Shown here one piece after another: positions 36,601 through 59,107 of a stretch of DNA of 64,000 nt (position 1 is the first letter of the stretch; each line of letters opens with the position of its first letter). The notes beneath the pieces were generated by a model, which was not told where the DNA came from, did not search any database, and saw only the letters and a program-made list of their open reading frames with translations. A program made the translations under genes and the position numbers. The DNA is from Pelecanus crispus (lineage: Eukaryota > Chordata > Aves > Pelecaniformes > Pelecanidae). The stretch covers positions 5,034,372 through 5,098,371 of the forward strand of contig NC_134655.1 in assembly GCF_030463565.1 (NCBI RefSeq), written 5' to 3'.

Positions 36601-37494
36601 GCTCCCAATTCCATTTACTTGTTAATAACTACTTTTTGTTTTTTAATGCTATCACTTTTTATCAGACATTGAAAAATACAAGATAAGGCATTTTCATAGC
36701 TGATTTCAGTTCTGGAGGAAGATTGCTAAATACAAAAGGCGTGCCAGAAGTCTGTACGCATCTGACCCATCAAGAACAGCATACTTCATAAATTAGTTGA
36801 TTTAAAAGATTTTTCTCTCAAAAAGAGTCTGGATTTCTTAACATAGCATTTTTACCTTGAAATTACTACAGAAGAAAAAGATTACTGCAGCATTAAAGAA
36901 AAGATTATCTAAAAGTTTGCACATATTTACACATTTAAAAATAATTACTTTTATATGGTTTACAACTAGGTTCTTATTTCAAAAAAGCAGCACAAGCTAT
37001 TCTCTACAGCTGGATAATTTCAATACAGTTGCCAGTTCACAAGTGTCAGCACTATTGCAAGGTTTGCTTCTTTTGATGTAATGGATTTTTAAAAAAAAAC
37101 CCTGGATCTCTTGCCTCTTTTGCAGTTAGCAACAAGATTTTCAAATTGTTCCCATTTGCTGCTATTGGGGATACCTACATACCCTGGCTCCCAAAGCTAC
37201 TCTTCCTTGAGCTATGAAAGATGCTATCTGCAGAGAAGACACTCGATGGTAGCGCAGCTGCTGTCCCCTGTTGGAGGCTGCACATACCGTTCAGTAACAC
37301 CCTTGTTTCCCCTACTCCATCACAGACTTTCAGCCCGTATCAGAGCCTGGCTCTTTCAACTAACCATATAACACTGACATACCAATGGAGCAATTTATTA
37401 TTTTTATATATATAGATATACGTGTAATGTGTATGTATCTCGTTGATTCACAGCATTTCAAACTCACATTATAAGTTTGCAAATTACTATTAAG
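33611..37494 (-). other. Probable long 3' UTR of the CALM-like gene
   Basis: An AT-rich 3.9-kb stretch on the - strand lacks coding exons and holds several AATAAA signals. The most distal, at 33639-33634, is taken as the likely end. T- and G-rich homopolymers lie at about 34570-34632. The assignment depends on the last exon being correctly placed. Confidence 0.45.
33634..33639 (-). terminator. Candidate distal poly(A) signal of the CALM-like gene
   Basis: An AATAAA on the - strand, followed by GTGT-containing sequence at 33605-33620. It is the last strong signal before the intergenic space next to VBP1. Confidence 0.45.
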
Positions 37495-37803
37495 CTATTC
37501 TAATGTAAAAAAGCTGTCTGATTTCACACAATATTGGCCTGATAATGCAAGCATTGCTCTACCAGAGTATTTATTAGAGCACATAAAAATTTTATTGCTC
37601 AACTTCACTTGTGTTTTGTCTTGGTTACAACAGCCACAGAATTTATGGAGAAAATAAATAGCTTTGACATCCTCAATTAACTTCCTCAGGTAATCCACTG
37701 ATGAATAAGGTTGTCGAGCAATCATGTAACCCCTCTTCTCAGCTTTGAAGATGATAATCCAGCTTGCACCTTCCGAGTCAACCTCAATAAAATAAGTTTT
37801 CTG
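37495..37803 (-). CDS. Candidate last coding exon of the CALM-like gene or of an unknown gene
   Basis: A pyrimidine-rich run ending CTGCTCAG is followed by a 102-codon open frame to TAG (37495-37497). The first 55 or so codons look protein-like: TYFIEVDSEGASWIIIFKAE, then GYMIARQPYSSVDYLRKLIE, then a cysteine cluster FCGCC. The acceptor is phase 0, which fits the candidate exon at 38478-38516 and the end of the exon at 38637. I do not recognise the sequence. It has no counterpart in PICALM or SNAP91. Two AATAAA motifs lie inside the frame. It could be a lineage-specific C-terminal extension, an exon of another gene, or a chance open frame in the 3' UTR. Confidence 0.35.
   Translation of the reverse strand, partial: QKTYFIEVDSEGASWIIIFKAEKRGYMIARQPYSSVDYLRKLIEDVKAIYFLHKFCGCCNQDKTQVKLSNKIFMCSNKYSGRAMLALSGQYCVKSDSFFTLE
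37502..37540. repeat. 39-bp dispersed repeat, copy A
   Basis: It matches copy B at 38922-38960 at 35 of 39 positions in the same orientation. Copy A forms the end of the open frame in the candidate last exon. The matching stops abruptly on both sides, and it resembles no repeat family I know. Confidence 0.85.
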
Positions 37804-38477
37804 CTGAGCAGTTTTTAAAAACAAAACAAAAAAGTATCAGTGAGGAAACATGACTTCACACTGCAGTGACTGTTATAAACAAGAATCTCTAAAGCATTGC
37901 AATTCAAAATATTGTATTATACAGGGAAGAAACAGTTGCCCTGTTCAGGAATACATCATGGAAATACTGAAATTCAGTCTTTTCTTTTTTTACCAGTATT
38001 TGGTTGTTCTCACATCTTGCTGCTTTGGCGGCTCTACATAAACTGTATCTGTGAAGTAGAGATTACATATTAATGCCACTTACATACATGGTTTCTCAGT
38101 GGTTTAGAATTACGAATCTAGTCAACTGCCTTGTTACTTGAAAGTGAAGACTATAGGTTTTGGCACTTAAAAAAAAAGTCCCCAAAGAACATTAAGACCA
38201 ACATACTTGCATGACAGGAGTACACAGTTTTTTTTCAACTTGAATGATCTCTTGCCCATGCCTTTTTCGCCTCCCTGCCACCTGACCCTCGGAAAGCTTC
38301 ACCACTGCTCTACGCAGTATGACTAAACCAAGTATCCAGCTAATGTTATAGGAAGTCTAAATTCTACTTATCTTCACCACTCCCATTTTCTTAACATTCA
38401 GACAGTAAGAAGTTAGCCACTAAATCTTTACTCAATTTTTACTGTCTTCCTTGCTTCCTACATTTGCATGGTCTTAC

Positions 38478-38516
38478 CATCTGAATTCGCTTCCTCGCAA
38501 AAGCTGTTGCCCTTGA
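38478..38516 (-). CDS. Candidate small coding exon following the NPF exon
   Basis: A phase 0-0 stretch of 13 codons (SRATAFARKRIQM) lies between GGTTCCTCAG and ATG|GTAAGAC. The donor is good and the acceptor tract is short. It would insert a basic segment after the NPF-containing exon. PICALM instead ends with a tiny terminal exon encoding IQFM. Confidence 0.4.
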
Positions 38517-38636
38517 CTGAGGAACCCTGCACTTTGAAATGCGGAAATACATTAGTAGCCCTTCACAAAACGTTATTCTTGCTTCTACCAAGACTAAAGT
38601 TCCAATAGGATCTCAAGATTAAAGAAAACAGTTCAC

Positions 38637-38744
38637 CTGAGTTTCAGAAACAGGTGCAAAAGGATTTGTTGGCCTTAGACCAGGTTGCGTATACATCATT
38701 GACTGGGGTGCCATCAAAGGAGCAGCTCCAATCTGAGGAGGTAC
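38637..38744 (-). CDS. CALM-like exon 22 (NPF exon)
   Basis: A phase 0-0 exon of 36 codons: [20 protein letters not shown], then [13 protein letters not shown]. It aligns with the next-to-last exon of PICALM, and the NPF is an EH-domain ligand. If the donor (CAG|GTGAAC) is not used, the frame stops after five more residues, a possible alternative C terminus. Confidence 0.92.
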
Positions 38745-41700
38745 CTGTTAGAAAAACAAAAATACCACAAAATAGATATAGAAAATTCAAACTAATTCTA
38801 GAAAATGCATCTTTTCGCATTGTAATTATAGTAGAAAATAAGCATATAGACACACATGTAGTAAAGTCAAAGCTTTTAAAAAACTTGCTGTGTAAAACTT
38901 GAGTAATCTTTTCCAATGCGCAATGTGAAAAAGCTGTCAGATTTCACACACTATTGACCTTATGAAACAATACCTACAAGTTGCAGAATGATTTGAGCAT
39001 AATAATGCCTGCCATGAAACCCACGGGAGGATACAACTAGGTTTTTCGGGAATACAAGACAATCACATTTCTTACCATTCCATATATAGGCACTTGAGGT
39101 GTGGTCAGTGGGTATGCGATAGGAGCAGGTACCTTTAATCAAGAAAATTTTAATGTATTTTAGACAAGCTCATGCATACTAATAATATATATCTAAAACT
39201 GAAAAATACATATTTTTCAATACTTAAAATAACCAACATGTTTACAAGAAATTGACTTACATATCCAGGATAGTGTACTCCATTCTGGCACAGCAAAAGG
39301 AGTAAGGACAGAAAATTATTTAAGAAGTATTCAAACTGGAAATTCTAACCAAGGGACGGATTCAAGTCCAGTACCATAACTTGTCTGTAACTATGCTCAA
39401 CCCATTTATTAAAACAATTAAAGTGGGAGGAAAAAAGTGCAAGGACAGTAACATCAGTAACTATGCCTGTTAACTTGGATAGGCTCCCTGCCTAGAAAGC
39501 TATCACTAGTAAGACTTACAGCAAAAATAGAAATTTTAGTAAATCTAGCCAGATTTGAGTATATTGCTTGCACAAACATTTCTGTGAGATGCTTTTAGAG
39601 GGCACAGCATGCAATATTGCTTCTGCCTCCCATTATGTGTGAGAAGGGCATAGAGGAAAAAAAAAAACCAACAAGCAAGGAAGCCAGTGACCATTCAGCT
39701 TAAGAAACAAAACAGCAACAGATGTTTCATCAGGTACATGTTGCTCACATACTAATTTCTGATGTCTGCAACATATCACAATAAGAAAAAAGAAAAATGA
39801 AGAGCATCTTAAGCTGGTAATAACTTATATCAGGTTATGTTCATAGGCACAGTGATGCATGCATTTCACATTGCCATGCATTGTCAAGTAGTGCTAATTA
39901 TATTAAAAATGGAGTGCTAGTTAAAATACTTCACTATGAAAGAGTATGCAGACTATACATGAATTGGAGGATTAGTACTCTGAATGCCACAGACCAAGCT
40001 AGGACAGTTAGACCTTTCCAATACTGGGGCACTGATTTTAAAGATGCTCATAACTGAACTAGTTCTTTGCATCATTAATTGTTAGAATCCCAAGCAAATG
40101 AGTGAGCAGATACCTGGCATAAAACACTCAAATGCTTAGACCAGAAAGTATTAAACATGAACACATTAAAAAAACCCCCACACAACCCAAATCCACAGTG
40201 ATCAATGTGTACTAAGGTGCCCTCTATCTTCCAAAAATAAGAATGCATCAGCACTCTTAACATGTTCTAGAGCACCAAGAGGGGATAGAAAGATTTAATG
40301 GTCTCAGAAGTCTCACATAAAAGTGCTATACAAATGAGACATCCTTTCATCTGAATTTGAGTTTCATTTTTGAGTCCAATAGTGGATTTAATATTCTATT
40401 CGACTTTCACAATTTTGAATGAGCATACACATAAGATGAGGAACATAGGCATTACAGGCAAAGCTATTCTTATTGGAAAATAAAAGTCAGACAGCAGTCC
40501 AAAATTCATAGCAAATATGGCAATTACCCTAGTTGTATATGTAATAGAGATGAACATTCTAATTCCCTCCAAGGCAGCTATATTTCAGAAGTGGTTTGTA
40601 TTTGTATGAATATATATGAATAGAAGATACTTGAAAAATCTCTTTTAAAAGCATAGGAAGAGTCAGTTGCCTACAAATATCCCTCTAGTAAACGAAAATT
40701 CTTCATTTAACTAACTATAAAACTTCCACTTAGTATTTTGTACTGTCTTAAAAATATGAAGTTGCTGTTGAGCATTTTCAAAAGTCAAAAATGCTGCTTG
40801 ACCTGATAATTAAGGTGCCTTACAGGGGCTGCAGCAACATTTCATGTGATAGAACTGAAAAGGGGGTGAAGACTGGAAGGAACAGCAGTGTTGCCCTTGA
40901 AACACATTCTTAGGATCCTTAAAGGTGCATATGTGTGCATGCGGGGTCAGGGGTGAGGCATCTCAAACACGCACATCAGAAATTTTCTGGTTTGGGGTCA
41001 TTTTTTTCAATTAAAAAAGCACTTATGAACTGAGGTATGTCTCAACTGAAAGGCTAGTTATTTAAGTCTTTAATGGACAAGTTTTACAGTGAGGGGAAAT
41101 AAAGCATACTAAAATCTCTACCTCATTCAGTTTGACACGTGATCCTACAAGCATTGCCCCCTGCCCCCAGTCTTGTCCCAAACAGCCTTTGCTATTCTTA
41201 GTTAATTCAAGCAGGGAAGTAACATTTTCTAGAATGAAGCATTTCAATAGTACAGAAATTACCATATGTGGAATAGTGGGTAAGGGAGTAGGGTTCCATG
41301 TGGTCGATGTGCTTGTTTTTGCTTGCCAGTTTGTTCCACCAGTAAGTTTTTTCTCCGTAGGCTGGGTCCACTGCATATCTGATCTAAACCAACACTGTAG
41401 TATTAGTTTTCACAAAGTCAACAGCTAGAGTAACAACAACATAATGGAAAACCAAAACATGCCTTAATACGTGTACATAGCTGAAATCTACAGATGGAAG
41501 AAACACTCAGTATTTCAGTAACTATTTATATATCTCTGTTCCAGCAAGTATGAAGTCTGGGGGTTCTGTTTTGTGTTAAAAGTAAACTATCATTACTGCA
41601 CTGTATAGCGTAACAATTAATTGGAGTTTTATGTAACTGCAAGATGGTACTCCACAAAAATACTTAAATAGAAACACAGCAATTGCAAAACTAAAGTGAA

Positions 41701-44700
41701 TTACTTCAAAAGATAAGGTCAACCATGTTATGGTGACTAACCACAAACTCACTGTTTCAATGCTGTACTTCATAGCAGATTACTTTCAAGAGTTGAGACT
41801 CTTGCCATGTTAGTGCTGCTAAACTGTGCCAGAGACTACCAAATAGTTATGTAAGAATACTCTAAGTACATACATGCACTTACTTTTTGGATGGAGTTCC
41901 TCCAAAGCCGAGATCTGGAGGGGAAAAAGATACAGACAAAATCCCTAAGTATTTTTATTTTTGGGGGGAAAAAAAAGCTTGGTTTGTTTTCAGCAACAAA
42001 TGGGAAAGTTAAGTTTAAAAGCTTCACACTTACTTCCCACTAGATTAGCAAGTGAAGAATCGAGGTCATTTGCCAAAATTTTTCCACTTTGCTGGTTGGC
42101 TAAAGTGGCTCTTTGACTTTGTGGTGGTACTGTGGGTTGCAATACATCGTCTAGAAAGTTAAAAGCTAAACAAAGAACATAAAAGCAACTGTTAACAGAG
42201 CAGTTACATTGCATTTAATAAGAGACATCCATAAGCCAGGGAGGTTATTTTCTTTATAGAACACTTTAGTAGAGTGTTTATATGTGGAGGTTCAACATGC
42301 TGGAAGTGTTTAAGGCTTAGACAGAAGCACAGTTTAACCTCTTATTTTTTTATGGAACTACACTGTAGTTACTATCTAGTAGAATCTTTAATTTTACTTC
42401 AGCAGTAACTGATGGTATTTTTAAATGTAGATGAATCTCCCCTAAAACTGCAGAAGAAGGAAGGTTGTTAAAGGTAGTTTCAAAGTATTCTTTTAACACA
42501 ATATAGCAGTAGTTTCATGATGCTGCTAGTATCTTGAGTGTACACAAGAGCTCCTTTGCTATATATTCATAAGGACCTTGAATACATAGCAAAATAGCAC
42601 CAACAGAAAGATCGTAACTCAGTTATTCTTCAAGCAACATACACAGAACGAGTTATGCATTTTTATAAGTACAACGCCTCTCAATGAAGTTAGGGGGGAC
42701 CTCATTATGACATATCAAGAGAAAACACTCTAGTCATAAACACTGAAAACAGATTTAACATAAGCTTACCCGTTAAAGAGATATCCAGTGGGCCACGTTC
42801 AAAGTTCATTCCCCCAAAAAGAAAGGAAACTGTCATTACACAGTATATAAAATACGTCAAAACTAATTTTAAAGTAAATAACTACAAATGAACTGATTGC
42901 CTGTTATCTTATCAGCCCTATAATCAGCTTGCAAATGTATTAAGTTATTAGATTTTGAACTGCAATAGCAATTATGCTAAATTGTAAAGCAACTGTTACT
43001 TGTAGGGTGTAAATTAGTCATAAGATAGTTTTTACCACTGGTAGTCCTGTACTCCGGTGCTGCAGATTTTCCTCCAAAAACAGCATCAAAGTCCACATTA
43101 ATTGTTGAAGAGGTGGTACTTGGAGGAGCCGAATGAAGAGGAAAACCTAAAAAAAAAAGTTTAGAGTAATCAAATACACCCATGGAGTAATACCACTCAT
43201 TACAGTGAAACTAGAAAGTTAAAAAGAAAATTCAAATTACCATCAACAGTCAGAGGATGATACACAGAAGCATATGTAGGTTTATGACCACTAAAGTCAT
43301 CTTCGTAGTAAGAGAGAAGAAAATAAGGTCAGTTTAAAAGAGAAAAAGGAAGAGGGGACCCCAAAATTAAGTCTGCAGTTAAAAATTAAGGATTTTTAGT
43401 AATAAAAAGAGGATTGTTTAATTTAACAAATTTGAAGCGCTCAACTAACTCCTGCATTCCCCATTACAAAAGAGAAAGGAGGCTGCAGTTTGGAAGAAAT
43501 CAGCAAAAATTCCAGCAATATTGCAAGTCTTAGGATGTCTAGGTTGGGCAAGCTGAACAAAATGGTTAGTTATTTCAATTGTAGAAATAAAGCTTTAAGG
43601 AAACAGATAATTTACTACATCTGGAATTAATGCATCCTTTTCACTTGTTACTAACAAGTGAAGATTGGTCCAAACCACAAAAAGATTACACAGCCCAGTT
43701 TATTTAGCATTATCATCTCCAGTTGCAAAGAAATTACATGGGGTTTGTTTGTTTGGTTTTTTACCACTAAACAGTTCCACAGTTTGTTTGGAGGAAAAAG
43801 TAGAATTGATGAAAGGGGTGGTAGATTTTACAGCTTCTTCAACTGGCTTCATGTCAAAGATGTCCAGATGAGGTGGAGAACCAACACAACCATTTGAGGA
43901 CGAGAAAGGACCTTTCAGATGCAGAAGTGAAGAAAAGAATACAGACCACAAATAATGGAAAAGAAAAACAGACTGAAATGACTGAATATGAGAATCTCTA
44001 GGTAAAGTCAAACTGTAAACATTCCACCTAGTGACCAGCCCATTCTTATAGTTTCATATAAAAATCCTAACAGCTCTCTATTTAGGGAAAATTATTCTAG
44101 TATTGCCATTGGGTGGGAGGGGGAGAATGACAGAACATTATCCAAAAAAAAAGTTAGATACTACATTTTTGGCTTCAAGAATCTACCTTTGAAATAACAC
44201 ATAAGGGTATCAATTCCACCTATTAAAATACCAACACTTACAATGGCGTTAACATCGCCTTATTTCAGCATTTAAGACATTTCTTTGACATCTATCCCGA
44301 CTATTCTTTGGAGGGATGGGTGGGGGTACAGAGAATGCTGTGTCCAAGAAACTGGGAACGACAGCTTTGTTGTAGGAACTCTGAAGTCACCAACACCTTT
44401 TAAATGAAAAATGTATTAAATATCACTTAATGGAATGGAAATTCCATTAGCCCAGCATCTTTTCAGTTACATCTGCCTATTTTATATTTTGCAGCATTTT
44501 TAAACTTTGATTTTCAGTTACATTTCTTCTACCTGCCCCCTTTACTGAATAGCTCCTTCATTCCATCTACTGAACACTGATACTACTGCTACGCGTTAAA
44601 AAAAGTAACTTTTCTGTAACAGTTTGCCAGAGCTTTCAGATGACTTATTTTATACTCTGTCAAAGACAGAAATGTTTGGATGCAAAGTAATTAAGGTTTA

Positions 44701-47700
44701 AGATGTAGATTCAATTAAGTATGAAACTGTAATTTATTCTTGTATTCTAAGAGTTCACCCATCATTTAGACAGCCAAATCATCATATCAGCTCACCTCCC
44801 CAAGCACTGCTCGCTGATGTTGATATAGCTGGAGTACTCTGCACAGTTGGAACAAACGCAGGCTGAAGATCAAAAAGATCACTAGAGAGGTTAGGCATGC
44901 TGAAAAAGAAAAAGCGAGAGAGAGAAACATGAAGATATGCAATAGGCATTGTATTCTTGTGCTATACAAACACTCATACCAATCTCACACTCTCTTGTTC
45001 ACTAGCAGCCCATCAATAACCGTGGTACAAAACAAAACCAGTAATTAAGCACTTTTTATTGACCGACACCAAAATCCCTGTGAATACACCAGGGAAGCAT
45101 CAGGAAAAGGTTATTCTTGAAAAGTACTTGAGAAGTAACTAGGATCAGTGTTTTGCAGTTGATTGTGGAGCTACAGGCCAATGCAGTAATATCTGCTCGC
45201 TTCAGAAAGCGAAGTCTCTCTCACCTGTTTGTTGTGGGCGCTGGTACTGCAAAGAGGTCAACAGCTGCAGTGGTATTCACGCTTTTTCCTGATAAGGTGC
45301 TTGGGGATGCTGATGTGGAAGTGGAATTTGGTACTACAAAAATCTCTCTCAATCGCTGCTCCTGAAAGACGAGATACACAGTTCGCGTTTTAATTTTATT
45401 AATTTATTAACCCTTCAGTCCTGAAGACCTTTTGCAAGAAAAAGTTTCAATTATGGTCTTAAATAAACCAGTTACTCTTCTGTGAAGTCCTGAAAGCAGA
45501 AAGATGATTGAAATGAGAGATAAGAGGATTTGCTTTAACAAAGCCTTTAAAAATCAAGGTGGGACTTGAGGTTTTAATAATTTTTTTTTTAACTATCTAT
45601 AACTGCCTAGAAGTAAAACATTTCTAGTCAAGCTACACATTCTAGGCTCCCTTTATAGTCACTCAGAAAAACAGGTCGATGGACCTTTGTTCAGAAAGAC
45701 CCATCTCTCTCTACTGTTAAGATCTCATTATAGTTCAATTCAGATGACCAGAAGTCAGACTGACAATGTGCATCCTAATAATATCCATGTGGTGTTGCTT
45801 TTAAACTAGCAAAATAAAAATCTAGTTTACGTTGTTAATTTTAGGTTTACATCCCTCATCACTTCTAGATATGCCCACTGCATTTATACAGCACAGGTCA
45901 AAGCACAGGTGTGTTTTACACTGCTTACATTCCTCAAGTACAACATTCAGTGAGCTTCCAAGTTTCCCCACCCCCCAAATGAGAATTTGTATCAACTGAT
46001 TTAATTATTCTGTTACAGCAGCTACAAGTCCTATCACAGTAGACATGGGACAGTGAAGAGGGGAGATACCCGATGCAACTCGTGAAAACAAATAAAAAAC
46101 CAAACCCCAACCAAAAAAGAACCAAAACAACATCATAACACTTGCTGAGATTCAAGTGAAGCAGTTCAGCAGCAGGCAGCAAGGCACACTAAGATTGTAG
46201 TCTAATAGCAAAAAAACCTGCTTCACATTGATTTGAAAAATAAACCTTATACTAAGTCAGGAAAATGGAGAACCTTCAACAGACCTCTATAACTCCAGAG
46301 ATGAAACTCAACTCTGCATTACCACCAGTTTGCTTTCACACTCCAAACAGTTTCAAGGCTCTCGTAACATTGCCTCCAGATGACAGGATCAGAGTTGCTT
46401 CATTGTTTAGGTGTGTCTAGAGATGCTAAAGCAGCACCAGAAAAATTCCCAATTGCCCCACTTGCATGTGCCTGGACATAACAGAACTACAGTTTCAGCT
46501 TTCAGCAAGAGAAGCACCTTGCCTTATTTGAGATTTCATACTGTGTAAGTTCTCAGGAAACAGTGTGATAAACAGGTTAAAAGGACCAGGATTCAGGCCT
46601 CGAGAGGGATGTTACTACAAGGAGTACTCGAAGTACCAATGAAGCAAAGGATAGAGCATTAAGGAACTAAGAGAGAAAACGCTGATTTTCTTTCAGATGT
46701 GTTACTATTCAAAGTCCATAAATTATACCTAAATATATATGATTTCAAACACTTTTTTAAACTAAATTATAGAATTATAAATAAGGGCAGTTAAATGTGG
46801 ACAGAACTGTAGCGTATATTCTCATTATGAGCAACATGACTGAAGAATCACACCAAAGCCATATTCCATACATCATGGGGAAAAATAATTCCCTCCTACC
46901 AAAAATCAGTCTTACAGTAGCAATGCTCTATGTTCAGCTGCTGAGATGGAACCTAGAAATGCTGTATACTCATTTTGTGAATCTTTGAGATGAATAACAA
47001 TCTCTTGTAAGGAAGAATATAAGTGATCTACATCAGCTGTCTGCTACTCAAATCCTGGTAGAAGGGTCACCACATACTGGCAGCCATTGTACCTGCATCC
47101 TACAGAAGATGAGTTTCCTCCACCATACACTATTTTCAGCCAATCCTGATTTTCACCTGTATCCAGTAAAAAAAAAAAAATCTCAGAATACGAACTCGTA
47201 AAAAAATATTGTACCTTAAGTGCCTGCAGTCTAGCTTGTTCCTCCTCCAATGCCTGCTGCTTTTCTTTCTCATCCATCCTGCTAAATGACATTCCTGTAT
47301 TGGCAAGTGTGGAAACAGCACTGGACAGGGCACTAGCTCTAAAAAACAGTAATAATTAAAAAAAGTTTTATTAAGAAAAACAGTCAGGTATACATGGCTT
47401 ACAGTTTAATCATCAAGTGCGTTATCTAGCTGTGTGTCATTCCCCCTCCACTTGAGTCTTTTCTTCCCTTACTCTCCGGTACGGAGAGGCAGACAACCCG
47501 ATAATGAGGGAGTTTGGTGAAAAAGCAGCATGAGTACACAGGACTACTCCCTCAAGTTTCAGCAGGACGAACTGGAAAGTGTAGAACACACCAATTGTCT
47601 TTTTTCTTTAAGGTCATATAGACTAGACTGGAATTCTATTCCATTCAAGTGGCAGAGGCACAGAAAGCTCGTTTGTACATATTATACATATAACAGTAAA

Positions 47701-50700
47701 CAAAGCACAGAAGTTATTCCCTATATAGTATACTTTTTAGCAGAATACTGTGATAGTGAATCTTCAGATACTTCCAAAAAAAAAAAATCTGAGGAGCAAG
47801 ACAGCAACTCAGGAATGTAGCTTATACCGATACATTTATAGTTACCAAGTTTCTGCGGGAGAATCCCTATGCCAAAAGATCTCTCGCTCTTTAGTCAGTA
47901 GTACTGTTCATACCTACTGATGCCGTACTTGACAGAAAGAATAACACAATTCCTGTCAGCACAAAGCATCTAAGTTAATTTGGATGTTCTGAGAAGGGAT
48001 TGAAGAAATTTTATATAAGCAGGTTAAGATAAAGTCGCAGTCTGAGAGGTAGATAATTGACAATAAAGATAAATACCATCCTATCTTGGGCAAAAAGAGC
48101 TTCAAAACCCAAATACCTTAGAAGTCTTGTAAGCCAAAGAAATTCAAACAATTAAAAGCTGAAAAAAGATAATATACAAGGTCTCAGCTCAGTGGTTTAT
48201 TACAGCATAAGAAGTCTGTCAGAGACACAGACAGACATACGTAGATTTCAAATGTGACTAAGCTATCAGACTACTTACTCACTAGATGCTTCATTTATAC
48301 TTCTACGAAGATATATTTGGAAGTTAGTAAAACTCAAGTAGAACACCAAATGACTGAATCCTGACAATTCTTAGTATGAAGATGACAAATCTCAAGTGTA
48401 GGCAGCATTGTAATTCGTTGCATGCTCACCTGCTGGCAGCAGAGACTTCTTTTGTTTTCTTTCCCTCCACAGAAGCCAAATGCTGTTCCAGTGCTTCAAG
48501 CAAGCTGCTGGGTGCCTAAAGTCAAATGTATTTATAAAACACTGCTTCTAGACAACACATCATTGTTTAGTACACAGATTAGCTTCCTCACCGACTAAAA
48601 CCAAATAGAAACCCACACATCAATAATTGTGCCTTTGGGTTTTGCTGCCATCCTGCACACCTGGATTCTATCTACCCACTTGTGGTTCTTTAAAAGGAAT
48701 GGCACCACAGAGACATGAAACAAGGATTCCCCCAGAGCAGGTCATTCTTCGTTTTGGCAACATATTTGCTATGTTAAGATGAATCCAATAATCACAGCTG
48801 ATTAAGCAGTATTCCATTAAACTCGCAGAAATACCAAAATGAAGCCTTTACAGTTTTGATCCCCTTTCCCCTGTAACAGCGAAAAGCCAATCGCTTTCCA
48901 TTCAAATGTTTACAGTCAAAAGGCTTGCATTAGAAACTCTTGACTACAGCAGAATGTTAAGTTTGATTAAAAAAGGCAATCAAATTCAACCTGATCCCAA
49001 CAACACTATTGCAGACTGAGTAGCATTCAACACATGACTACACAATAAACAAACTCAATTACTCCAAAGCCTTTGGTAGCCTAAAACACTAGAAACCAAC
49101 AACATCACTTCAAATAAAGTTGTTTTCTGGCAGATGCCCCTGCCCCCCCCCCCCCCCCCCAAAGTGTTACCCATGAGAAGTTTTTAAACATTAAGCTGTT
49201 TTAAGATTCAAAAAACCAGGCTTCTTGCCACTTAAATCCAGCAGGAAGTCAGGCACTAGACACCTCAGCTAAGACTTGAGACTAAATGAGCTAAATGAGT
49301 TTTAGGTGACCAATACTCCTAAACTTACCAAGACTTTTGCGAACACAGCCATGACATTATTCAGTACCCAAAACAAAGATTTTAACTGGTAAGTAACAGA
49401 AAAGAGCAAGTTTTGAAATATACAGACTAAGGCACACCAGAGCTGCTTTGGTTCCTACAGAAAACAAGAAAAAAGTGCCAATCATAACCTGCCTTCTCTC
49501 TGCCATATACTTGTATCCACTACAGAAATACTTCTTCCATACCAAAGGAAACAGCTTCAAAGCTCAGAATAAATTTGAACTCATCTTAATTACAGAGTCT
49601 TAGTAGGAAGTAAGATTTCTCCAAATCATCCTATAAAAACAACTTCCATCAAGCAAAATAATTAGGCTGGCACTTTTGGAAGAGTTCACTGCCTTGCTAT
49701 TCTAGCCACATTGCTCTTGTGGCTTTTAACTACATAGTCCTAACTCCATAAAACAAGTGAAATAAATCCTACTGCAAATTCAGGTGAAGGGAACAGACCT
49801 CTAAAGTTTTAATCTACTTGACAGCTCAGTCCTCATCTGGCAGGGTTTCAGAGACATTAAGCCTCTCTTGCCACTTTCCAACTTTCAATAGGTGGAACAA
49901 ATATGATAGGCATTGTTTGGAAGAAAAACAAACCTGCCCTTGCTAGCCCTTCTGTACCAAAAGCCAGACCAAAGTATTTCCGGGGAAGAAGAAAAATGTG
50001 AATCACAAGGGTTTGGCAAGTTCCCCTCTGAAATACTGAGCACAACTCTGGCTTCCCACATTCAATGAAGGCCAACTCAAGCTACAAGAGATGCAAAGAA
50101 AAGCAATTAGAATAATCCTATAAAACTGCTTGTCTTAGAGTGAACACCTGAGTTGGTATTTCTTTCTATAAATAGAGCTAGGTAAGCTAAGACAGGGTAG
50201 TTACCTCAACAAAAGCTCATGAATAAACTCAGCGTTCAAACTAGACAGCTAAATCCCAAGGGGGAACATTCTGAAATACCCTTCCGGAAAAGTATCAGAG
50301 ACCAAAAAAAATCCAAATAAAAACCCCCCATACTTTTACCTTTCAGGAGGAACAATAGTTTGCAAAAGGCATTGCATGACATAGCCAGACACATAACCTT
50401 AATAACAGGAGACTATACCCTAAGTCCAGAAAGTTTTTCCTAGTCCTCATTTTTTTTTTTTTTTGAGGCCACTCTAAAACTTACCTGTATGGACAAGCAT
50501 ATTCTACACTTAGTGTTTCTAAACCCCTCTAAACAACCCCCTGAACCATAAAACCTAAAACCAACAAACCTGTAACTTCTCTGAACTTTCTCATTGCTGC
50601 AGACATCCAACAAAACATCAGAGATAAAACTACTAAGATCTGTTCGAAATTTCATGTCAGAAAAGATGCCTGGGCTAATACAGACATTATGACTTGAAAA

Positions 50701-53700
50701 AGGCTGTATTTGATGACTCAGCCTCCTTCCCCCCAAAGACATCTGAGAGACTAACATCCATACAGAGGAAGGTGACCCAGTTGCATTAATGAAATACAGT
50801 AACAGCTATAAACAGAAATTAAGCAACATCACTATGAAACAGGGCACCTACAAAGAAAAATATTTTCTTTACAGGAACTGGCAAAAGTGGCAGTAGTGTG
50901 AACATTAGAATCAAGGAAGAAAAACGCTTATACAGCAGCAGGAATAATAAACCTCTAAAGAGACAAAACTATTGTTGTCAGGAACAGCTTAAGGAAACTC
51001 CGAAATATGCATATCCCACAACAGAATATACACCAGAAATGTAAACAAAGTATCTGGAAAGAAATTAAATACAGTAGACCAGAATAGACACAAAAGACAT
51101 GATCCTTTCAGAACTTATTTCAGAAACACAAGCACACTGAAAATTAGATCTTTGTGAAAGCCTAGTATTAAGAAATTTTAGCAAATTCTTTTAATGTGGC
51201 ACTAAATTGATGTACAATTACTCAACTCTTATTAAATGCCATGAAATTTACTATGGAAGTGGAATGCTTAACAGTGGCACTGAAACTGCCAAAACACACA
51301 GGATGCTGACATCTACCACCACAGTTCAGAGAGGTGCCTTTCATGTCTAAGTGCACTTAAAACAAAATAGCTGAGCTATTAGAAAAAAATGTTGTGAGAA
51401 CAGTAGATAGAAAGGGTTTTGCTCATGGAAAGTTTCAGATATAAAGAGCACCAAAATGAAATTAAATCCCCTATTCTTAGTAAATAAAAAAACCCAAACC
51501 TGCTTTGCAGAGCCTTATAATGACCCAATTAACTGGACAAGTGCACATAAACCCGGTGAAGTATAGCTTCAGACTTGAATATAATTTCATTAGCATAATA
51601 CAGACCAGCTGAATACTGCAGCACTAATCAAAAGACAGAGTAAGATGCTAATATCAAACACCAACAGAAAACATCAAGCTACTGTTTTCACTCATTACCT
51701 GCCCTTACCCTGCTGGTTACAGTCATATCTCTTTCCTACCACAAAGACCTAGAAGCTCTTAAAGGTGTTAATATTAATTTCTAGGAGCAAGTATTAGAGA
51801 TTTGTACTTTGAAACATGTATGATTTCAGATGGAAATCATACTGTAGGCAGTAATGAACAACACTGACAATGGAAATTTGTGGTGTAGATTTGATTTCCA
51901 TATTAAAAAGACACTGATGAAATTTAGGCAAATCTTCACAGTGGATGTATTTTTACAGGATTAACTCATGAAATTTAATTTTGTGAAGGTAGTGTAGGAT
52001 TAGATTTTAACTGTTTCACACTGACTCCACTTAAACAGCTCAAGTACTCTAGACAGAGCTCTAAGGCACTCCAGTCTATTGCCTGAGTCTCCTGACAGAT
52101 TGCCATTTATTCTACCCATCAGGTTACTCTGCGCTACAGAAAGAATACCAAATACCTCTGTCCTGTTGGGTTGGCCCTAGGTTAGAAATACAATGCCCCT
52201 ATGAACTGAAGGAACTTGCAAAGAATAACTCTGTGCACTTCTGGGGACTATCAGTGTTTCCTGTTCACTGGTTGAACCATCTTTCTCACCTCCTTTCTGC
52301 CCCTCAACTTAGCCTCACTAGAAGGTATTCCCCTGCATTCCACTTTTTAGACTAAATGTTCCAGTGCACAACCTGTACTGCACATGTCCCTCATACTACG
52401 GAGTAATACTGAAACCAGCGTTCAAGTGCTGATATAGAAACATCAAATCTATTCAGACCTCAGGGGAAAGAAAAAATTCTTGACTGAACTAGCTAACTGT
52501 AATCTTTAAGTGTGTTGGAAGACATGGCAAGATGCTTGTGGCTTACGTGCCAGTGAATCTTCTGTAATAAAACCCAGAAGTTCTTGAAAAATATTTTCTG
52601 TGAGTTTTATTGCTTTAAACAATAAAAAAAAATCTTACCAAGAGCTGTAAAGTGCAAGTACTGAGTACGTTTAATCCATGGGAAAAGTCACCATATATAT
52701 TTCTCATATGTAAATACATAGAAGAGAATACATTCTCGAGATGAATGATTACTATGATACACACCAACCTTTAAAAATGCAAAGAATAAAATAATTGGGT
52801 TAATCAATATGATATGTACACTGACCTGAGTAAGATCTGGAATGTCACCCTGATCAATTCCAACTTGCTGGGTTTACAAAAGAAAAGAAGAAAAAATGTA
52901 CATTACTACTTGCAGTGGCAAAGAAAATAAAAACTAGTGATGTCTGAATGTTACATAGAAACTAACATATTAAAAAGGGATATTCGTAACTTTCTGAACT
53001 GGTACAAGTTTCACTAGGAACACAGCTTAGAAATCACAAGTGCATTAAATTGCATCTCAACAGAAGCCCAACTTATCATCCAGCCTAACTTTTCATGCAG
53101 AAAAGCTTACAGGGAACATTAGAAACACCCACATTACTTACTGGATCTACTTCTCCATTTTGAGCAGTTACAGTAGAGCACTTCAAATACACTGTAACAT
53201 TCAGTTCATACATTTTGGACCATTCATGAAATCTGTAACGCTTCAGAAAATTTACTGTGGTGTTTGGCTAATAAAAAGGATACCTAAGAATCTCACTTCA
53301 TGTTAATGAGCATATACAATCTTTAAATACCTAATCTGTAGAATACTTCCTTGTATAGCAAAGTTAAGCCAACATTATTCTGTTTGTAAAGTTGTTATTA
53401 AGAAATTAGACTACTGTACCAGTACAGACAGCTAAATGATATCCTTTCCATAGTTGTAGATCTATTTACCTCTGCTACTTTGAGGAATTCTGACAATTTG
53501 GTCATTCTGGCTAGAAATTTCTTGTAAATATCCAAGCCTTCTTTGCACTGGTTCTTCTTCATATCAAAATATCTTTCTGAGGATGCAAATAAAACTCTTG
53601 TAAAATAACAGCCTCCCCAGCAAAAAGCTGACACAGTATTTTAAAAGTTAATTTGAGACAAGCTTCAGAGAGAGAACAGACAGGAGTAACTCAAAGCTAT

Positions 53701-56700
53701 TCAGATTTTAAAGTTTACATGAACACCTGACACCTTTTGTAATAAATCAGTCAACAGAAAAACATTGATTTTTCTATTTCAGTATATTAGAATATAATGC
53801 AAAGCTTTATTAAGCATGGATGTGAATCACTGCAATTGTTAAATTAGGGATTTAGGGGGAATATTTTCAAGAAGTCAGCTTAGTAGCTGGCAATGAGGCA
53901 AATTATCATTTGAAAATATTCCTGGTATGTATTTACATTTTTAGACCCTGTATCAATACGTTTTGATGTCTGTAAATGGCCTCAATATCCAAAAGACATT
54001 AGAATGGCTAATGAAGCACTACATATACCGAACGGACCTACCAAAAGGAGTATCAACCAGATCCTTCACTTTTTATCGTTTTGTCCTATACGCTTATAGA
54101 TATTTCATGGAGTAACAACTAATGGATTAACAGAACAAACTGATCAGATGTTTTCATTCAGAAATTTGCCTGAATAGCCATTGCAAGGCTTTGCTAAGAG
54201 GTTACCACTCGAACCAAAACCCTACATGTCATCTACTAGGCTCATGTAGATTCAGGCACCAGGTAAAAGTGAATAGTCACGCTATAAAGAAAGTACAGGA
54301 AACCAGAAGTCAGTCATACTGTGACTATACTAAATACTCAAAATACCAGGTGTCTCACATAACCTTTGGCAATTGGACTGTAAAAGTATCCACTGCACAT
54401 TTATGGTATCTTTGTTTTAGTCTCACCAGTCACCCTCTCATCTCAATTTCTGTTTCAAGATGTATTCTTCAAGGTAGAAGCGTATATTTAAGCCTATGCT
54501 AGTTGCCACTGAAACCAAGGCAGGCTTAATTTAATGGTAATTGAGCAGAGACGATTTATTTGGAAATTGCAGTCAGAAATTGTCTATATTCTTTAGTTCT
54601 TTCAATATCTTTCACAAAAGTTCAAAAGCTAAAAAAATTCTCACCTACCTAAAAGATTAATAATCCCCTCGTTGTATGCTGCAAAAAGTCTAATGGAATC
54701 TTTAAAGAGGAGCATGAAGGCAGCATTTATAACACCATTTGTTAGTTCATTTGGATTTGCCTGTGTAGAAAGTAATGAGAACATAAATTAATATTTAATA
54801 AAATAATGAAACTCTCACTTCAAAAATGAGAAACTTACCTAATGCTGAGCTTAGAGTACTTACATCAAAATCGAGGAGCGCGTCAAGCTGGTTCTGTATG
54901 ATTGGAAGGGTTTTCAGAAGCTTTTCAGCATTCATGGTTCTCATCACTCCATCTATCCTACAGAGTAGAAGACACATGTTTACAAGTTACCAAGAGACCT
55001 CAGCATATTATGCTGTTTCCACAATACTGTATTGCTTCAAAGGGCCAAAAGGAACACCAATCTACAATAAGCTCAAGAACAACTGGTATTTTCCTGCCCG
55101 CCCCTCCCCCCCATGAAAGACCAAAGAAAAGCAGCAGTAACAGTCTTACCCTCTTTTCATTTTGGTGAAGTCAACTGCTACAAGTCTATATGAAAGTGCT
55201 TTTTCATTCAAGTATCTGCTATATCGCCTAATGAAGGTAGACATATCATAGCCTAAAAGTTAAGCATTTGTAAGTTAGACATTTTGAAGGGGTACAATTT
55301 CTTCTAAGTTCTTTTCAAGAACTATTCTCCTACTAGCCCATTTTACATCAGCTTGCAGAAAAAACACTTTCCATCTTGAGACTCGCTATTTTTCACCTTG
55401 AGATGTAATGTTACAGTTTCTTCCCAACTTGCTAAGATTAAGAAAGTGTTCATTGCAATTATGCAAATAAACACCTAAACACATTAAAATATTAGGCAAG
55501 AACCAAGCAGCTCTTATTAAGATCTTCTCAAAATTAGACTGAAAATTTATTCCCAGTAAAACGCTGAGGACTTTGGTAATTTACCTGCAATGCCTCAAAA
55601 CCACATAAAGACCCAAAAATATTTTCTACCATTGGCAAGTAATTAAAAGACTTCTTGGAGATTTGAAGGAGTTCTCACTATTTATATAGCACATCCTAGT
55701 TACCATTCCATGCACCTTAACAGTAAGCATTTACTCCTGAAACACTAAAATGCAATGGCAAAAATAGATCATATTAATCAGGTTTATTCTAGTCAGCGTT
55801 AAGAGTTTACTTTTTAAAAATTTACAGCTGTGTATGCACGATACATACGTTACAGACAAACTTCTAGCACTCAGCTAGGTAACTCAGAATCTCACTTTTC
55901 TTGCGTCTACATTCTTGGTTTGCCCCTCTTTGGTGCCTCATGCAATATAAATCGTAACACCCTTTCATTGAAATGCCATTTGTCTCCTAGAGTGCACTGA
56001 CACAGGCGCTACCCCAGAGCAAAAAAGCAGCAGCGTTATTTCCTTCAGTGAAAGATCCTTACCCTGCATGGCACTTTTGTCCAGGTAGTTATTTAAATTG
56101 AACAAAGTGTTTCGGGATGCAAGATACTGGATAAAGCGCTGTTGGTGAAGAAAAATTTGAGAATATCATTGCTGTGAGTCAAAACATTTACGCATATTCC
56201 AAGAAAACTACACTTACCTTGTATTTCTAGTAACCTCTATCAACAAAAGGAATTAGTTAAAAGGGGAAAATTTAAAGTAAAACTTTAAACTACTGATTAG
56301 CAAAGCCTCTGAAATACTAAACTATTTGGCAAAAAAGTAAATTTAAATAAATAAAAAGACATCGCTGCCATGAATAAAAGACTAACAATCCTAGAGGAAG
56401 CTGCTTAGATTAACTTTGTAGCTTAGAACAGACAAGTTGGAAAACAAAACCAAAATACCGCTTGCATTATCCAAGCTTCCAAGGTTTGCATAGAGCTACT
56501 GCTGCTGTAGAAGTGGGAGACAGGCTTAGTTACAAAGTTTAAAAGTAATTCGTTAACAATAATGCTACTGGAACTGCTGTGAGCAGCAGCAACGCTGGGT
56601 TATAACTACATGTACACGTAATATTTTTTTTTAATATATATATAAAAAAATAATGCAGTGATCCAACTAATTATTTCAGTTTTGACAAATAACTGGCTCC

Positions 56701-59107
56701 ATAAATAACGCAAGAGTAAGAGACAAACAAATCCAGATAGAAGGTACTTTTAAAAGTTTCTCTGTCACTGTTCCACACAGATCTCCTATGATTGCGATTT
56801 CTTTACTTTCTTGCTGCTTTGTATGTGTTTTAGACCGTAAAAGAGGATTATGATCACTACGGCTTAAGTGACTTGTTACATCTTTGATCTGAATCCCTCT
56901 GCTGCCACAGCACGCAAGGCCTGTTCATTCACCCTTCACGGTGGAAATCCACCTGCCTGCCAGGTTTGGGCTATCGGGCTCTGCAAAACTAGGATTTTTC
57001 CAGTCAGGCTCAGTATAGCACCTGCTCTTTGGGAACTGTAACGAGGGCTTAGCACAGCAACAAGAAAATTCTCCTCAGAAGTACTACTTAAACCAAAAGC
57101 AGTACTTTCACCTTCCAAGAGGCCCAAATGATTCCCCAACTTTTCACATACCACCTCATCGGTAACTCCGTATGTGTTCTCAGCCTATAGCTACAGAGTT
57201 CACACAAGTCTACAACACGCAGCTTGCCTACCAACACTTCTGGCACTGTTTTAACTTCTTATTCTGTTTTCCAGTCGGTTTATCTGGTCTTTGTACATCT
57301 TAGTACTGCATTCAAAGAGATACAGAAGAGGAAAAACAGTTGGAACATAATCAGGAACAGAACAGTGATATTCAAAAGGTATCTATACACATTTCAAAAC
57401 TAGCTACTGTTCTGAATCTCATTTTAAAAGGGCCAAGGCTAACTCTCACTCTCCAGATGTCAGGGGTCTCGTGCTGCACAATGCACAGTTGAGAGTTTTA
57501 ACCTGTTTCACCCAAAACTTCATCACAAGAAATAGGTAGTCACATTTAACAAGAAACTGCAAGACAGTGATTGCTCAAACAACCTTTTGACCTTCTGCTA
57601 TATTTACCTGTACTTAAAATAGAAGTCCAACACCTGATAATTTTTACCTGTTTAAGAAAAAGGCCTCTTTTAATCTATTAGAGGAGTGAGGAGTACACTC
57701 ATGTTCCACCTGAAATTACAGAACTAGTGTTCCAGCCACTTTATCCCAGCTGGTGTAAAGGAACACTTTTTCAAGTTTCAAATGTACCCATTCAAAGCTG
57801 GTGAGCAGGTTTGGTATAGACATAAAAATTCAACTCTTCTGCCACTACAAAACACTGTATGGGCAAACAGATACTGACTGGTAGCCCAGAACTCTAACTT
57901 TCCATTTCCTATTCTACAATTCAGTGTTTGCTTTTTCCTTCTCCCCTTTCAAGTTTCAGTGTGTAGATACGAACTGTACTGAAAGAAGAGAGCATAAAAT
58001 ATACAATGTGATTTACAGCATTCAATTTAGCTTTATACTTGGAACAAATAGTGAATTCCAAGCAGTGAATTTTACTTTGTATTATCCTCTAATTCCAGCC
58101 TATTGTCTGCTGAAACTACAATTTAAGCACATAAACAACGTAGCGAAGTGTGAAGAGCACACTATGTTATACAGGTCATTTCAATTAAGTTCACAGAGCC
58201 TTGGAGAGAGGAGGCAACACTAAGTTTTCAGAGCAGTTTAATGGCTGGAAGCAATACCTTTAAGACTCATCATTTCAGTATTACCACTAGTCAACAGTCA
58301 TTTATTAGGTGAATGACTACACACAAGTTCAGGACTAAACTGTCACCTGACCACGACAAAGTTTAGTTTTTAACGGAAGGACTGTGTAAGAGAGGCTACC
58401 TTTCTAATGCCATGTTATTGTCTGGGAAACTTTTAATAAATAGTGATGAAACAATTTAAGTGAAATAAATGCAATAGAAACCTGTTTCGGAGGAATGTTA
58501 ATGACAACAACATATGAAGATTTAGCCCATTAGACGATGATTTGCAAGATCAAATATTCTAGTCACCATATTCCTCCCCCCTTTAGTAAGTATTCTTATC
58601 TGTTAATAGGTTGGCTGCACATTTATGGAGTGCTAACAAGACTCTTTTGCTGTGCTCTTACTGATAAGCACTCGCCTAATGAAGTAAAGCTCATCAGAAG
58701 TTTTTCAAGTCTTTATTCTAGAAAGGTCACTAATTATTCCCTCACAGCCCAACCCAGATACCTGCAGGTAAATTGCAAACACTGCTATATTTTGGTATTA
58801 AAATAATGAAGGAGTACTGTCATCTTTGGAGAAGTACTGCACAGCCATCAGCAGAGGAAACAAAGACCTTTGAAAAATTGAAGTACATATCTAGTGCTTC
58901 ATAGATTGAGGCAATTTTTTAAAACACTGTCAAGGAGGCTTTAACAGCACTAATCATGTCTTACCTCGTTTCCATACATCATGAGGTGGTGTGTTGTAAT
59001 TAGAGCTTTGAACACTACAACCCAGCTACTGTTTGCAGTTCTCTCAAAGAGTGTGTCTGCCAACTGCGGAATATTCACATTCATTTCATTTGTGCACTGT
59101 ATTAGAT
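38637..59107 (-). CDS. PICALM-like clathrin assembly protein (AP180/CALM family), 5' exon outside window
   Basis: Twenty-one consecutive exons join in frame to 660 residues, beginning at the equivalent of Tyr44 of CALM. The family binds PIP2 through an N-terminal ANTH domain and recruits clathrin, AP-2 and SNAREs through an unstructured tail at the plasma membrane. The ANTH part (exons at 59107-52826) is very close to [92 protein letters not shown]. The tail keeps the family order: [51 protein letters not shown]. It is otherwise much diverged, so this is a paralogue, neither PICALM itself nor SNAP91. Every exon has canonical splice sites and matching phases, so it is not a pseudogene. The PIP2-binding residues in exon 1 are beyond 64000. 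Introns longer than 300 bp not listed separately (38745-39075, 41384-41883, 42166-42769, 43301-43764, 43912-44795, 44900-45224, 47339-48429, 52868-53469, 53577-54648, 55253-56062) show no other feature except repeat copy B in the first. Confidence 0.93.
38922..38960. repeat. 39-bp dispersed repeat, copy B
   Basis: The intronic partner of 37502-37540, with four mismatches in 39 and the same orientation, about 1.4 kb away between exons 21 and 22. Confidence 0.85.
39076..39132 (-). CDS. CALM-like exon 21
   Basis: Nineteen codons, phase 0-0: [19 protein letters not shown]. It aligns with the APPVMAYPATTP segment of PICALM. The donor is ATG|GTAAGA. Confidence 0.9.
39261..39284 (-). CDS. CALM-like exon 20, 24-nt microexon
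   Basis: Eight codons, NGVHYPGY, between TTGCTGTGCCAG and GTAAGTC. It is symmetric (phase 0-0) and so can be skipped without frame change. From memory, PICALM has a similar alternatively used NG-starting eight-residue segment at this position. UGC motifs just upstream of the acceptor resemble those of SRRM4-dependent neural microexons. Confidence 0.85.
39285..41262 (-). other. CALM-like intron 19
   Basis: A 2.0-kb AT-rich intron in which I see no exon, repeat family or RNA gene. Confidence 0.85.
41263..41383 (-). CDS. CALM-like exon 19
   Basis: It encodes [20 protein letters not shown] and a Thr/Ser/Pro-rich end. It corresponds to the family block WSQPGEKKLTGGSNW. The acceptor TTTAG|ATCAG restores the frame from exon 18; a closer AG would not. 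Confidence 0.93.
41884..41914 (-). CDS. CALM-like exon 18, 31 nt
   Basis: A small exon encoding (N)LGFGGTPSK(K), matching the NLGIGNGTTKND block of PICALM. It takes one base from exon 17 and hands two bases to exon 19. The acceptor is CCCCTCCAG and the donor AA|GTAAGTGC. Confidence 0.92.
42034..42165 (-). CDS. CALM-like exon 17, with tandem 3' splice site
   Basis: It encodes [16 protein letters not shown] through [12 protein letters not shown]. Two acceptors lie 15 nt apart in frame: TTGTTTAG (exon from 42165) and TAACTTTCTAG (exon from 42150). The longer form keeps a 12-residue match to the FDELGGLLKPTV segment of PICALM and is preferred. The short form would remove five residues. Confidence 0.92.
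42770..42829 (-). CDS. CALM-like exon 16, paralogue-specific
   Basis: Sixty nucleotides, phase 1-1, encoding (V)[19 protein letters not shown]. The donor ACGG|GTAAGC is strong and the acceptor AATGACAG has a weak pyrimidine tract. I know no counterpart in the main PICALM isoform. Frame and phase fit exactly on both sides. Confidence 0.65.
43036..43146 (-). CDS. CALM-like exon 15
   Basis: Phase 1-1, with the family block [13 protein letters not shown] (compare NVDFESVFGNKS in PICALM) after a Ser/Thr/Pro-rich lead. A clean T-rich acceptor precedes it. Confidence 0.92.
43241..43300 (-). CDS. CALM-like exon 14, paralogue-specific
   Basis: Sixty nucleotides, phase 1-1, encoding (D)[19 protein letters not shown]. 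The acceptor (CTTCTCTCTTACTACGAAG) and donor (G|GTAATTTG) are acceptable. The main PICALM isoform has no obvious equivalent, so it may be alternatively used. Confidence 0.7.
43765..43911 (-). CDS. CALM-like exon 13
   Basis: Phase 1-1, 147 nt, starting (G)[20 protein letters not shown]. It aligns with the PICALM exon that begins DPFSATVDAV. The AP-2-binding DPF is changed to GPF here, while DIFD remains a possible clathrin- or adaptor-binding motif. Confidence 0.88.
44796..44899 (-). CDS. CALM-like exon 12
   Basis: It encodes [20 protein letters not shown] and a Ser/Ala-rich end closing with AWG. It matches the NDLLDLQQPTF to STWG segment of PICALM. DLFDL is a candidate clathrin-box motif. 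Confidence 0.92.
45225..45361 (-). CDS. CALM-like exon 11
   Basis: It starts EQRLREI, matching EQRLKEL of PICALM, and then becomes a Ser/Thr-rich linker with VDLFAVPAP. The Lys-rich KKP of PICALM is replaced by FVVP. Confidence 0.92.
45362..47214 (-). other. CALM-like intron 10
   Basis: A 1.85-kb AT-rich intron; no further exon, RNA gene or repeat family seen. Confidence 0.85.
47215..47338 (-). CDS. CALM-like exon 10
   Basis: It encodes [20 protein letters not shown] and then the charged helix [20 protein letters not shown], equal to the [20 protein letters not shown] helix of PICALM. Confidence 0.95.
48430..48515 (-). CDS. CALM-like exon 9
   Basis: It encodes [20 protein letters not shown] and TKEVSAASR, the end of the ANTH-proximal region, nearly identical to PICALM. 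Confidence 0.95.
48516..52825 (-). other. CALM-like intron 8, largest within the window
   Basis: A 4.3-kb intron. It contains an uninterrupted C18 run (+ strand) at 49143-49160 and a T-rich run at about 50449-50464. No exon, RNA gene or TE family is recognised. Confidence 0.85.
49143..49160. repeat. Homopolymer C18/G18 tract
   Basis: Eighteen consecutive C on the + strand, preceded by CCCCTG. Such long C tracts are rare in vertebrate introns and are common places for length polymorphism and sequencing error. Confidence 0.9.
52826..52867 (-). CDS. CALM-like exon 8, 42 nt
   Basis: Fourteen codons, phase 0-0, [14 protein letters not shown], a hallmark of the ANTH C-terminal region in this family. 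Confidence 0.95.
53470..53576 (-). CDS. CALM-like exon 7
   Basis: It encodes (E)[19 protein letters not shown] and [16 protein letters not shown], an ANTH helix nearly the same as in PICALM. Confidence 0.96.
54649..54760 (-). CDS. CALM-like exon 6
   Basis: It encodes [20 protein letters not shown] and [17 protein letters not shown], a conserved ANTH-domain segment. Confidence 0.96.
54864..54957 (-). CDS. CALM-like exon 5
   Basis: It encodes [20 protein letters not shown] and [11 protein letters not shown]. The MN-EKLLKT wording follows PICALM rather than SNAP91 (MAPEKLLKS), supporting closer kinship to PICALM. Confidence 0.96.
55150..55252 (-). CDS. CALM-like exon 4
   Basis: It encodes [20 protein letters not shown] and [14 protein letters not shown], part of the ANTH helical stack. 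Confidence 0.96.
56063..56138 (-). CDS. CALM-like exon 3
   Basis: It encodes [20 protein letters not shown] and KSAMQ. It differs from PICALM mainly in [10 protein letters not shown] versus SNFLDKSGLQ. Confidence 0.96.
56139..58964 (-). other. CALM-like intron 2
   Basis: A 2.8-kb intron. A T/A-rich run with short TA repeats lies at about 56620-56650. No further exon or TE family is recognised. Confidence 0.85.
58965..59107 (-). CDS. CALM-like exon 2 (first coding exon inside the window)
   Basis: It encodes (Y)[19 protein letters not shown] through [20 protein letters not shown] and HLMMYGNE, only a few residues different from PICALM. It starts with two bases of a codon split with exon 1, exactly as in PICALM. 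The preceding exon with the initiator and the PIP2-binding lysines is not in the window. Confidence 0.96.

Follow-up and report, generated by a model that had tools for sequence, protein, structure and literature searches.

Combining gene modelling, genome-wide profile searches, phylogenetics and comparison of gene neighbourhoods, our work here describes a gene in a 64,000-nucleotide stretch of the Pelecanus crispus genome (C13:5034372-5098371, hereafter the window; the genome comprises 1.31 Gb in 310 contigs) that we consider very likely to be an intact third member of the AP180/CALM family, presumably left over from a vertebrate whole-genome duplication, probably the sister of PICALM (CALM), and at work as a clathrin adaptor. 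We call this gene CALM3. The family itself is already known, and it is the third gene that would be new: in the openly accessible literature that we searched, we found no earlier description of an AP180/CALM gene beside VBP1, although databases may list it as PICALM-like. The human PICALM and SNAP91 (AP180) sequences used throughout were working reference copies rather than database records, and the ANTH domain of the former agrees by eye with PDB 1hf8.

The part of CALM3 inside the window, modelled from sequence alone, consists of 20 minus-strand coding exons that run from 59107 down to 38034, with AG at 20 of 20 acceptors and GT at 19 of 19 donors; human PICALM finds exon-sized matches on the same strand from 59105 down to 38634. 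Joined in phase, these exons (2 to 21) yield 635 codons and a stop, residues 45-679, with no internal stop codon. Exon 1, which encodes MSGQSITD...KKKHLD plus 1 nt, lies 3.1 kb beyond the window at C13:5101604-5101475 (window coordinate 67233-67104) within a CpG island (surrounding 1000 bases: GC 0.74-0.80, CpG o/e 0.98-1.18), and completes a protein of 679 residues. The first-pass annotation had placed 21 intact, in-phase exons within 37495-59107; their intactness, phase and total stand, with the correction that 20 are in the window and the first is outside it. The product carries the CALM-type ANTH domain expected of it, with a Pfam match of 261.7 bits (E = 7.9e-78, cut-off 21.5).

The ANTH domain extends over exons 2 (58965-59107, 143 nt), 3 (56063-56138, 76 nt), 4 (55150-55252, 103 nt), 5 (54864-54957, 94 nt), 6 (54649-54760, 112 nt), 7 (53470-53576, 107 nt; bearing most of the VAMP-contact and two of the ubiquitin-contact residues) and 8 (52826-52867, 42 nt), and ends in exon 9 (48430-48515, 86 nt). 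It is followed by a CALM-type segment in exon 10 (47215-47338, 124 nt) and a DLF motif at residue 374 in exon 11 (45225-45361, 137 nt), each of these exons being as long as its PICALM counterpart. Beyond them, the alignments and the in-phase model place DLFDLQ at residue 392 in exon 12 (44796-44899), a 32-residue SNAP91-like stretch and DIF at residue 436 in exon 13 (43765-43911), and an FxDxF motif across the junction of exon 13 with exon 14 (43241-43300), whose 60 nt are optional for the frame. Exon 15 (43036-43146) leads to conserved blocks in exon 16 (42034-42165; 132 nt, the length of PICALM exon 15) and exon 18 (41263-41383), on either side of exon 17 (41884-41914; 31 nt, the length of PICALM exon 16); exon 19 (39076-39132) and exon 20 (38637-38744), with NPF at residue 666, precede the last coding exon 21 (38034-38048), which closes with IQFM-stop, the ending that we take human PICALM to have as well. 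Of the 19 exons modelled for PICALM, 13, the first 11 among them, have the same length in CALM3, and the lengths of the remaining 6 are off by multiples of three, so the copying took place at the DNA level.

Because the IQFM-stop exon sits at 38048-38034, the lower end of the gene as first annotated (37495) is best read as 3' untranslated sequence. The inferred 3' UTR (37394-38033, minus strand) has AATAAA signals at 37591, 37570 and 37394 and contains an open reading frame of 113 codons (37495-37836, minus strand), which we dropped as a coding exon in view of the upstream stop, these signals and the lack of any Pfam match above cut-off; its match to a circovirus ORF4 model (E = 0.031; 14.9 bits, cut-off 25) we attribute to chance. 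Scanned against Rfam at gathering scores, the window gave no match.

A search of the whole genome with the ANTH profile returned at least 15 exon-by-exon matches (all 26 candidates scored; the counts are lower bounds): 3 in PICALM on contig C1, 4 in SNAP91 on C3, 3 in CALM3, 2 each in genes on C12 and C11 that we take, from their peptides, to be of HIP1 type, and 1 in the ENTH domain of a presumably epsin-type gene on C11. The match at C12:13133135 is assigned to its HIP1-type gene by proximity only. The ANTH domain of the C1 gene is identical to that of human PICALM at 287 of 289 residues (99%), and exons 2-7 of the C3 gene are 96-100% identical to human SNAP91. We modelled 647 residues of the C1 gene with its last exon not located; the IQFM exon was not found in C1:220466001-220470000, a scan that stopped 612 bases from exon 19. 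With PICALM and SNAP91 both present elsewhere in the same genome, as the first-pass annotation had anticipated, CALM3 is a third paralogue, and the reading of it as the only PICALM of the species is ruled out.

At the level of individual residues, the surfaces by which CALM engages its ligands are largely kept. The phosphoinositide site is identical at five of five positions (K28, K38-K40 and H41), of which K28, K38 and K40 have been tied to PIP2 (PMC4406947) within a KKKH context (PMC4194041). Helix 0 (residues 1-18), which senses curvature, matches CALM at 17 of 18 residues. In the R-SNARE groove, L219, F240, M244, I247 and L251, tied to VAMP8 (PMC3267021), are identical in four cases and conservatively replaced in the fifth (I247L); the ubiquitin-contact residues F223, D224 and L274 are retained and the fourth is changed to glutamate (D276E; PMC8648300). 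Elsewhere in the domain, CALM3 has some residues in common with SNAP91 and LAP. At the position of I247, SNAP91 presumably carries V.

The tail has moved further and is 46% identical to the PICALM tail and 37% to that of human SNAP91, against 34-36% between those two. It carries DLF at 374 and 392, DIF at 436, FxDxF at 467 and NPF at 666, together with conserved C-terminal blocks. That the tail is diverged was correctly seen at first; that it was rewritten for changed partners is too strong a statement, since the C-terminal blocks of CALM are kept and exon 13 resembles part of an AP2-binding site of AP180, from which we would expect the same classes of partner, AP2 and clathrin, in a different mix.

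The resemblance of exon 13 to SNAP91 was first noticed in the alignment and tested afterwards. A gapless alignment with human SNAP91 covers 32 residues, 15 of them identical (PF..S.G.....P.LD.F.MKP), and its score of 76 exceeds that of every one of 2000 shuffled versions of the exon (maximum 56), whereas the score of 40 against the PICALM tail is reached by 72 of 2000. The corresponding SNAP91 exon on C3 gives 16 identities in 32 and a score of 81 that none of 5000 shuffles reaches. Searched against the whole genome, the SNAP91 segment finds SNAP91 first (3.3e-16) and exon 13 second of three, at an E value of 0.49 that is not significant alone. The site by which AP180 binds the AP2 beta2 appendage has two parts, DLFGDAF at 435-445 followed by residues 470-500, and FxDxF at 562-569 is a separate motif (PMC11246429). 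We found no counterpart of the DLFGDAF half in CALM3.

The start of exon 13 has the same position and phase in CALM3, PICALM and SNAP91 (G/xx CCN TTY, the slash marking the intron, encoding DPF or GPF), and both CALM3 (FS/DDF) and SNAP91 (FG/DLF) have an intron of the same phase within FxDxF. In the PICALM model, exon 13 is joined directly to the counterpart of CALM3 exon 15. Exon 14 initially seemed questionable, its matches in the loci first compared being at chance level; the SNAP91 FxDxF exon junction lends support that is limited to its start, and for the 137 residues of the SNAP91 tail beyond that junction all five genome matches fall in SNAP91 itself on C3 and none in the window. The simplest reading is that the AP180-like exon 13 and the split FxDxF are ancestral and were lost by PICALM, although convergence of short motifs may also lie behind the likeness.

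Where CALM3 belongs in the family is addressed by its ANTH domain, which is identical to that of C1 PICALM at 257 of 289 residues (89%) and to that of human SNAP91 at 230 (80%); PICALM and SNAP91 themselves agree here at 82%, near the published 81.4% for mammalian CALM and AP180 (PMC4194041). In a maximum-likelihood tree of six ANTH sequences (301 columns, LAP as outgroup, C3 SNAP91 represented by exons 2-7 only), CALM3 is sister to both PICALMs with support of 95.7/96, and the PICALM clade itself receives 98.3/99 (SH-aLRT/UFBoot). On this best tree the duplication would predate the split of birds and mammals. CALM3 is thus probably the sister of PICALM, a placement that is not decisive: the SH test rejects none of four trees.

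We regard it as unlikely, though less so than the other alternatives, that CALM3 is instead sister to SNAP91, or branched off before PICALM and SNAP91 separated and merely retains an ancestral likeness to PICALM. Exon 13 is nearer to SNAP91 than to PICALM, the ANTH residues common to CALM3, SNAP91 and LAP fit such a placement, and the AU test leaves the grouping with SNAP91 just at the border (p = 0.0501). Against it stand the support for the PICALM grouping, the CALM-like exon 10 and C-terminal end, and the shared derived sites, of which CALM3 has 9 with PICALM and 3 with SNAP91, with 1 uniting PICALM and SNAP91; for the early branch in particular, the AU test gives p = 0.026.

A very unlikely origin is a fast-evolving duplicate of PICALM confined to the bird lineage. 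PICALM is the closest relative of CALM3 in ANTH identity and nearly identical in exon structure, and the SH test does not reject this tree (p = 0.085), but the AU test does (p = 0.007). Moreover, the speed that such an origin calls for is not evident: C1 and human PICALM are 99% identical in the ANTH domain, and that of CALM3 is not significantly faster by Tajima's test (15 v 8, chi2 2.13, with SNAP91; 10 v 9, chi2 0.05, with LAP). A large-scale event is further indicated by the paralogous block in which the gene lies.

CALM3 is flanked in the window by RAB39B (plus strand, 12708-17507) and VBP1 (minus strand), in agreement with the location first assigned to it; these two were matched among eight neighbour probes, the other six (BRCC3, CLIC2, F8, MTCP1, FUNDC2 and CMC4) giving no match in the window and the loci examined. 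A GC-rich minisatellite (11427-12085), some 37 copies of an 18-bp unit with the consensus GGCTCCCCCTCAGCCCCG, lies about 600 bp upstream of RAB39B, which starts at 12708, and at 2031-2369 (plus strand) there is an open reading frame of 112 aa that resembles the C-terminal end of a bird CR1-type reverse transcriptase. The next gene found upstream of CALM3, on the same strand at C13:5.13-5.15 Mb, is of GAB3 type.

We probed three families, RAB39, GAB and the MTM1 group, picked as what we take to be pairs between human Xq28 and 11q, and all three have paralogues around PICALM at C1:208-223 Mb. On C13, RAB39B lies at 5.05, CALM3 at 5.07-5.10, a GAB3-type gene at 5.15 and MTM1/MTMR1-type genes at 9.2 Mb; on C1, a RAB39A-type gene lies at 208.8, an MTMR2-type gene at 214.5, PICALM at 220.5 and a GAB2-type gene at 223.0 Mb, these type names being our assumption. 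RAB39B finds its best other match at C1:208.8 Mb with 77% identity (31 matches, mostly to other Rab genes); a part of MTM1 gives 28 matches, of which only a gene pair at C13:9.18-9.22 Mb and one gene at C1:214.53 Mb exceed 55% identity; and the PH domain of GAB2 gives three, at C1:223.0, C4:15.8 and C13:5.149 Mb. Two adjacent RAB39-like matches with 54% and 50% identity, perhaps of RAB42 type, were also seen at C16:4630031-4632767.

A GAB gene is thus a neighbour of both CALM genes, as the next gene found upstream of CALM3 and at 2.5 Mb from PICALM, and the arrangement of the three families around PICALM is what a block from a whole-genome duplication looks like. CALM3 is most likely an ohnologue of that kind. 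The gene order is not peculiar to the pelican: on turkey chromosome 9, RAB39B, VBP1 and GAB3 follow one another in that order, in a table that is restricted to named genes and in which no PICALM gene is given (PMC8470100). The mammalian family has been described as having two members (PMC6912373), and if this count holds, loss of CALM3 in mammals follows.

We consider it exceedingly unlikely that CALM3 is a recently inactivated gene or an unexpressed relic. Its 2040 coding nucleotides contain no lesion, its splice sites are intact and its first exon retains a CpG island; if neutral sites change at 1-2e-9 per site per year, as assumed here, 320 My should have brought 25-50 nonsense changes, and none is seen. 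The strong constraint on the ANTH domain proposed in the first-pass annotation is borne out by comparison with C1 PICALM (NG86 dN 0.067, dS 2.12, ratio 0.032), and the tail gives a ratio of 0.13 (dN 0.48, dS 3.67); these ratios are rough because dS is saturated, and for the tail the case for constraint therefore rests on its conserved blocks. A retrocopy or an assembly artefact has next to no chance, being contradicted by the 20 introns, the PICALM lengths of the first 11 exons and the location on a contig of 25.5 Mb with VBP1 and GAB3 on either side, in the RAB39B-VBP1-GAB3 order also reported for turkey (PMC8470100).

CALM3 is most likely a working clathrin adaptor. From the ligand residues that are kept and the motifs that its tail carries, we infer that it binds membrane and R-SNARE cargo as well as AP2 and clathrin. 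The protein would be held on membranes containing PtdIns(4,5)P2 by helix 0 and its ANTH domain, whose groove would pick out small R-SNAREs (VAMP2/3/8) and possibly ubiquitin-tagged cargo as well. The tail would recruit clathrin and AP2 through its DLF/DIF motifs, the FxDxF that spans the exon junction, and the AP180-like segment, which corresponds to half of a site for the beta2 appendage of AP2 in AP180. CALM3 may thus join the cargo end of CALM to part of the AP2 end of AP180.

What such an adaptor would be for invites speculation. One improbable idea is that it serves bulk clathrin uptake in egg-laying vertebrates, for example of yolk by the oocyte, and was lost in mammals along with yolk. 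In the eel ovary, a Calm/Picalm-like gene and Picalm rise at the onset of vitellogenesis and Picalma and Picalmb are unchanged (PMC8834532); any of these may or may not be the orthologue of CALM3, and this is the sole hint in favour of the yolk reading. In a study of salmon maturation, a gene listed as 'clathrin assembly protein-like (picalm)' may be any of the paralogues, and the authors advise caution about it (PMC6377724).

The presence of a third, ancient and apparently working member has consequences beyond the gene itself. PICALM is well established as a risk gene for Alzheimer's disease (PMC6912373), and redundancy with CALM3 may confound PICALM comparisons and knock-downs in birds. If it was lost in mammals, CALM3 is a test case for what they did without. 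The union of a CALM core with an AP180-like exon in one gene is to us the most interesting part of the finding, and a testable one, as it makes CALM3 a natural chimaera in which the tail motifs that define an AP180 could be told from those that define a CALM.

Compared with known systems, CALM3 stands apart from HIP1 and HIP1R, which also carry an ANTH domain (on C12 and C11 here) and are defined by a talin-like C-terminal domain: in a Pfam scan up to E = 1 the CALM3 protein matches ANTH and ENTH only, and no talin-like domain. Drosophila LAP (PDB 1hx8), the single fly member of the AP180/CALM family (PMC6912373), is a more distant ANTH homologue. AP180 is closer, with 80% identity in the ANTH domain, a match to exon 13 within the latter half of the extended site at which it binds AP2 beta2, and the same intron phase at FxDxF; in contrast, the CALM3 tail has 390 residues and human SNAP91 618, with 3 and 12 D[LI][LF] motifs and pI values of 5.4 and 4.05, respectively, and the CALM3 tail has an NPF. 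The nearest system is CALM/PICALM, whose solved structures include 1hf8, 3zyk and 7jxv, among others: the ANTH domains are 89% identical, the first 11 exon lengths are the same, C-terminal blocks are shared and, with human PICALM, so is the IQFM end. The two differ in the tail (46% identity), where CALM3 has DLF, DLF and DIF in contrast to the DIF and DLL of PICALM, reads GPF for DPF, lacks the first of the two NPF motifs of PICALM and possesses the extra exon 14 with its FxDxF.
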